Part shown: in pieces, positions 20,284 through 20,320 of the stretch
How the letters are laid out: every line of letters starts with the position of its first letter
How positions within the stretch are numbered: the first letter of the stretch is position 1
Assembly: GCA_030831965.1 (NCBI GenBank)
Contig: JAURJZ010000010.1
Span: forward strand, 1-35,133
Origin: Verrucomicrobiota bacterium
Lineage (GTDB): Bacteria; Verrucomicrobiota; Verrucomicrobiia; Opitutales; UBA953
DNA length: 35,133 nt
Direction of reading: 5' to 3'
Translations under genes and position numbers: made by a program
The notes under the pieces: model-generated
Database searches by the model: none
What the model was told of the DNA's origin: nothing
What the model saw: only the letters and a program-made list of their open reading frames with translations

Positions 20284-20320
20284 AGACCGGCGTCCCGCCT
20301 CGGACAGCGCCGGTCTTTTT
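20284..20320 (+). terminator. Intrinsic terminator inside the pyrG 5' leader (candidate attenuator)
   Basis: A 9-bp perfect stem AGACCGGCG (20284-20292) / CGCCGGTCT (20308-20316). The loop can pair further (TCC with GGA), and the stem runs into TTTTT-C-TTTT. It ends 24 bases before the pyrG ATG. No plus-strand gene lies upstream that it could terminate, since sdhC runs the other way. It is therefore either a pyrG attenuator or the end of an unrecognised small RNA. A competing pairing is possible: CGGTC at 20254-20258 with GACCG at 20285-20289. Confidence 0.75.

Follow-up and report, generated by a model that had tools for sequence, protein, structure and literature searches.

A conserved terminator and an overlapping 5′ hairpin as a candidate transcription attenuator of pyrG in freshwater Verrucomicrobiota

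Leader control of pyrimidine genes

In Escherichia coli, pyrC and pyrD are controlled by CTP-sensitive selection of the transcription start site, with a hairpin that hides the Shine-Dalgarno sequence. Attenuation of pyrG, the gene for CTP synthase, is to our knowledge described only in Gram-positive bacteria, where it acts by G slippage. For Bacillus subtilis, passages of PMC4448216 and PMC4403831 that cite Meng, Turnbough and Switzer (2004) describe a pyrG attenuator based on CTP-sensitive reiterative transcription, and a passage of PMC4448216 gives a similar layout for Streptococcus agalactiae.

Here we analyzed the pyrG leader in a stretch of 35,133 nucleotides from a Verrucomicrobiota bacterium (referred to below as the window) and in its relatives. 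As in B. subtilis pyrG, an intrinsic terminator lies in the leader near the start of the RNA (here a predicted one), no leader peptide is present and no PyrR is needed for pyrG. The predicted start here is an invariant GUCC, in contrast to GGG in B. subtilis, the putative antiterminator pairs GUCC with GGAC and so uses a templated strand rather than an untemplated G tail, and a C/U-rich 5′ terminator arm of the Bacillus type is absent, with AGACCGGC being invariant. As there is neither a GGG start nor a C/U-run arm, the Bacillus mechanism does not fit, in agreement with an earlier sequence-only reading of this DNA, which had found the pairing unlike that of Bacillus. As in E. coli pyrC and pyrD, a pyrimidine gene here has a hairpin at the very start of its RNA, and formation of that hairpin might depend on the first nucleotides; unlike in those genes, the hairpin here has a U-run and, as an SD-like motif was found in none of 50 leaders, sequesters no Shine-Dalgarno sequence. 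The putative competition between antiterminator and terminator in the leader of a pyrimidine gene also recalls the PyrR-dependent pyr attenuators, although the organism's own genome (98% complete) gave no match to the PyrR protein and Rfam gave none to the PyrR RNA binding loop at E ≤ 10. Nor does any Rfam family cover the leader (no match at E ≤ 10), and in the open-access literature searched, pyrG attenuation and Verrucomicrobia were not brought together in any paper. The earlier reading knew of no case from this phylum.

The terminator, its promoter and its distribution

The features considered are collected in Table 1. By curated profiles, the genes around the leader are sdhC (divergent), sdhA and pyrG. 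The terminator stem consists of 9 bp, AGACCGGCG with CGCCGGTCT, directly followed by the T-run TTTTCTTTT; 24 nt separate position 20320 from the pyrG ATG. The region 20280-20345 folds at -22.4 kcal/mol, compared with a mean of -11.9 for dinucleotide shuffles (z -4.9), and none of 200 shuffles was as stable. Both the letters and the fold thus bear out the earlier placement of a 9-bp terminator at 20284-20320, 24 nt before the ATG. A covariance model scores it at 55.8 bits (E 1.1e-9). It should be noted that a preset terminator scan (loop of at most 8 nt) skips this hairpin because its loop exceeds the limit. A hairpin scan of the whole window gave only one other clean terminator, at 6731-6712 on the minus strand, as the earlier reading had also counted; it reads GCCCCGCC GCCC GGCGGGGC followed by TTTTTT. 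Three further hairpins from the same scan are long and irregular with weak T-runs, and by form the terminator in the pyrG leader is the best of the window.

Table 1. Positions of genes, promoter elements and leader segments in the window
Feature	Position	Strand	Remarks
sdhC, divergent neighbour	19415..20104	-	TIGR02046, 199.9 bits
-35 box TTGCCA	20246..20251	+	TTGCCA/T in all relatives; TTGCC in 29/29 distinct promoter contexts
-10 box TCCAAT	20268..20273	+	TGCAAT, TGAAAT or TGACAT in relatives
Segment A, GTCC	20280..20283	+	invariant; predicted +1; 5′ strand of candidate antiterminator
Candidate antiterminator hairpin	20280..20305	+	outer stem GUCC/GGAC; inside it, segment B paired with the loop
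Intrinsic terminator	20284..20325	+	stem 20284-20292 with 20308-20316, then T-run 20317-20325
Segment B, GACCGGC	20285..20291	+	invariant in 19 distinct cores; 5′ terminator arm, also antiterminator
Segment C, GGAC	20302..20305	+	terminator loop; reverse complement of segment A; 19/19 cores
Segment D, GCCGGTC	20309..20315	+	invariant in 19 cores; 3′ terminator arm
pyrG, CTP synthase	20345..21946	+	TIGR00337, 760.6 bits; NF003792, 805.7 bits

Upstream of the terminator lies a predicted promoter whose 29 aligned distinct contexts read TTGCC(A/T), 16 variable nt, TGNNAT, 6 nt and then the invariant GTCCAGACCGGC. T-12, A-8 and T-7 of the -10 box are invariant in these contexts, while the 16-nt spacer is hypervariable. 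The pattern TTGCC[AT]-N15-18-T[ACG]NNAT has a single match in the window. From this spacing, transcription is predicted to start at about G20280, 7 nt past the -10 box, and GTCC stands at a fixed distance from the -10 box in the relatives; the sequence 3′ of the terminator is without conservation there. Further upstream, at 20173-20180, GGTATTAG is conserved in relatives; it reads CTAATACC on the minus strand and probably serves the divergent sdhC gene as the -10 box of its promoter.

To follow the distribution, the leaders were read in 57 relatives in which PyrG had been found. In the window's own genus (g1) and a sister genus (g2) of freshwater Verrucomicrobiota, the element is present in all 54 genomes whose assembly contains the 5′ end of pyrG, which rules out that the terminator arose by chance. 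On the grounds of form, energy and conservation, the evidence for a real terminator is solid, and termination in vivo would be expected. In a search of 79 genomes of the family with a strict pattern, each matching genome held one site, except for G085, where a duplicated contig copy gave two; in the g2 genomes without a match, the assembly does not include pyrG or does not reach its 5′ end, and no match fell in genera g3, g4 and g5. In g3, the element is either lost or was never present. The covariance model gave 52-78 bits at pyrG in the 54 genomes and no score above 29.4 bits elsewhere in the family; scattered matches at 27-34 bits occurred in families elsewhere in the order. When the strict pattern was run against about 85,000 species, every genuine match fell in front of pyrG within this Opitutae group, under titles such as Opitutia bacterium UBA953 and UBA957 and those of several isolates from lakes. 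Matches in other phyla do not precede pyrG and most resemble protein-coding sequence; promoter and T-run were found in none of those checked. Among the genuine matches, the same leader stands before pyrG at locus L174, which is probably the pyrG of G036, a gene that was not detected at first because its GKG motif is altered.

Invariant blocks and the overlapping 5′ hairpin

Among 19 distinct cores, segments A to D are the only invariant blocks of the leader, together with the A nucleotide preceding segment B, and the nearby sequence drifts freely. The loop between segments B and C varies from 1 to 12 nt; in one leader (L036), it is shortened to 7 nt, CGGACTA, with segment C retained. Just two of the invariant blocks, GUCC and GGAC, lie outside the stem arms, and each is the exact reverse complement of the other; for a fixed pair of this kind, the chance is 1 in 256. 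When the RNA is folded up to segment C, the structure of minimum free energy pairs them in all 19 cores. Inside this outer stem, segment B pairs with CCG(UC) of the loop in nearly all cores, and in L036 the outer stem alone remains. The energy of this 5′ hairpin is -11.0 kcal/mol in the window and -4.2 to -9.8 kcal/mol in the other cores; versions with shuffled loops are only modestly less stable (mean z -1.3). As it is about 10-14 kcal/mol weaker than the terminator, it would need kinetics or a factor to win.

When segment B is engaged in the 5′ hairpin, it is unavailable to segment D, and the two pairings are thus mutually exclusive. Both structures are kept (in 99% and 97% of cells), and no compensatory change was found when covariation was sought in the terminator and 5′ stems. 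Because both stems are invariant, covariation cannot prove either helix; such invariance is expected if segment B must pair with two partners. The segment order (A, B, C, D) also makes a pseudoknot via GUCC/GGAC possible. A leader from the window's own genus (L049, genome G001) keeps all four blocks with the U-run degraded to CCGTCGTTTTT, and this natural weak-terminator variant is useful for comparison.

The sequence-only reading had seen the layout of an attenuator here, with CGGTC at 20254-20258 pairing with GACCG at 20285-20289 as antiterminator, and had proposed to align the spacer from relatives for a conserved terminator and a covarying antiterminator. The layout is supported in that a conserved terminator follows its own predicted promoter and is overlapped by a candidate hairpin, and the alignment returned the terminator in every leader of the two genera, without covariation. 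The suggested pairing is not supported: its letters exist, but CGGTC is unconserved and, since it falls in the variable spacer between the -35 and -10 boxes, probably untranscribed. From the letters and folds, the 5′ hairpin appears to be the better candidate for the antiterminator.

Candidate mechanism and rival readings

Transcription from the promoter (-35 at 20246, -10 at 20268) would give an RNA from about G20280, the first 26 nt of which would form the 5′ hairpin, its outer stem being GUCC/GGAC and its inner pairs joining part of segment B to the loop. A further 10 nt would complete the stronger terminator, segment B with D followed by the U-run. With segment B serving one hairpin only, the share of polymerases that pass the U-run would set the amount of CTP synthase, and a low level of a pyrimidine nucleotide, most likely CTP, would favour the 5′ hairpin and hence read-through. 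Sensing might occur through CTP-dependent choice of, or escape from, the invariant GUCC start, or through CTP-dependent pausing in the C-rich leader. That the element is a transcription attenuator of pyrG with the 5′ hairpin as candidate antiterminator is the reading we favour, at slightly better than even confidence, and leader hairpins would then regulate the gene. CTP is a plausible signal. The fuller proposal, in which a fully templated 5′ antiterminator responds to CTP read by the polymerase itself through start choice, escape or pausing at GUCC and the C-rich leader, with no slippage, protein or ribosome involved, is tentative and, taken as a whole, doubtful.

The attenuator reading should be weighed against several others. 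A constitutive promoter-proximal terminator would lower pyrG output by a fixed factor without response, as a strong hairpin far more stable than its competitor might do, and neither covariation nor a sensor was identified that would speak for more; yet such a terminator needs pairing alone, so that its arms should drift with compensation, whereas in fact 4+7+4+7 nt never vary and the drift is seen in loop and spacer. We consider it unlikely. The unusual invariance of the primary sequence would also follow if a trans-acting regulator other than PyrR bound the RNA or if the leader acted as a small RNA, and AGUCCAGA..GGC is like what we take to be the PyrR loop consensus at most positions. Neither the genome nor Rfam provides a PyrR match, however, and the overlapping pairings account for the invariance as well, which leaves this explanation rather improbable. 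Invariant half-sites just past the start could likewise mark the inverted repeat AGACCGGC...GCCGGTCT as a repressor site on the DNA, but the half-sites are spaced 7 to 19 nt apart and a T-run follows the repeat in all but one lineage, and an operator is thus highly unlikely.

Two readings appear hardly credible. Bacillus-type reiterative transcription, with a poly-G 5′ tail as antiterminator, would suit the same gene and a terminator near the predicted start, but none of 50 leaders has GGG at the start (RRG-UCC, with at most two G), and poly-G would find no C/U run to pair with in the 5′ arm AGACCGGC. Terminators often act as insulators, and the hairpin might end another transcript or block read-in; the divergent orientation of sdhC in all checked relatives of the two genera, which agrees with the earlier statement that no co-directional gene lies upstream, excludes the terminator of an upstream gene, and the conserved promoter stands upstream of the hairpin with nothing conserved downstream.

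Other candidates were rejected. Poly-A slippage at AAAG is contradicted by leaders with GAAG and AAGG, AAA not being conserved. A leader peptide would need a start codon, and ATG, GTG or TTG is absent in 35 of 50 leaders and none is shared; an N-terminal extension of PyrG is at odds with leader lengths in all three frames. A C within the U-run, considered as a CTP pause signal, occurs in 18 of 20 pyrG leaders, but interrupted U-runs are common elsewhere (C at positions 4-6 in 30 of 56 other hairpin matches of these genomes, many of them probably spurious).

In the wider phylum, terminator hairpins before pyrG are rare: one that is terminator-like and within 160 nt was found in 27 of 141 distinct pyrG leaders, with 4.6 expected from shuffles, and most of the 27 come from the window's family. 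Different hairpins in a similar place, after a TTGCCA-N16/17-TGNAAT promoter, occur in the sister genus g4 and in part of g5; a shared 5′ antiterminator in g4/g5 was rejected, as the hairpins there do not outperform shuffles (mean z -0.5). In three of these leaders (L002 and L188 of g5, L027 of g4), CCCCGTTGGCCCCGACGCC or CCCGACGCC directly follows the promoter, with a terminator, and the initially transcribed C4 run could allow slippage at high CTP. An unrelated family (f36) has its own pyrG 5′ hairpin, UCCCGACGA/UCGUUGGGA, of a sequence unrelated to that of the window, with one compensatory change (A-U to U-A) and followed by T7-T9 abutting the pyrG ATG. This hairpin, UCCCGACGN..NCGUUGGGA, lies about 40 nt before the ATG (L281-L283, L285-L290) and could be a terminator or mask the start codon; among the genomes whose assembly reaches the pyrG start, it is conserved in all except one, lacking at L284. 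Within the phylum, hairpins in pyrG leaders thus probably have two or more separate origins. As a separate observation, nine genomes of genus g56 (G112, G118, G127, G130, G154, G163, G169, G188 and G193), 90-98% complete, are without any PyrG match, which is odd for CTP synthase.

At 40 nt, the leader is small enough for nucleotide sensing to be tested directly by single-round transcription. A conserved leader of a different build in Verrucomicrobiota would show that CTP synthase came under leader control more than once in evolution.
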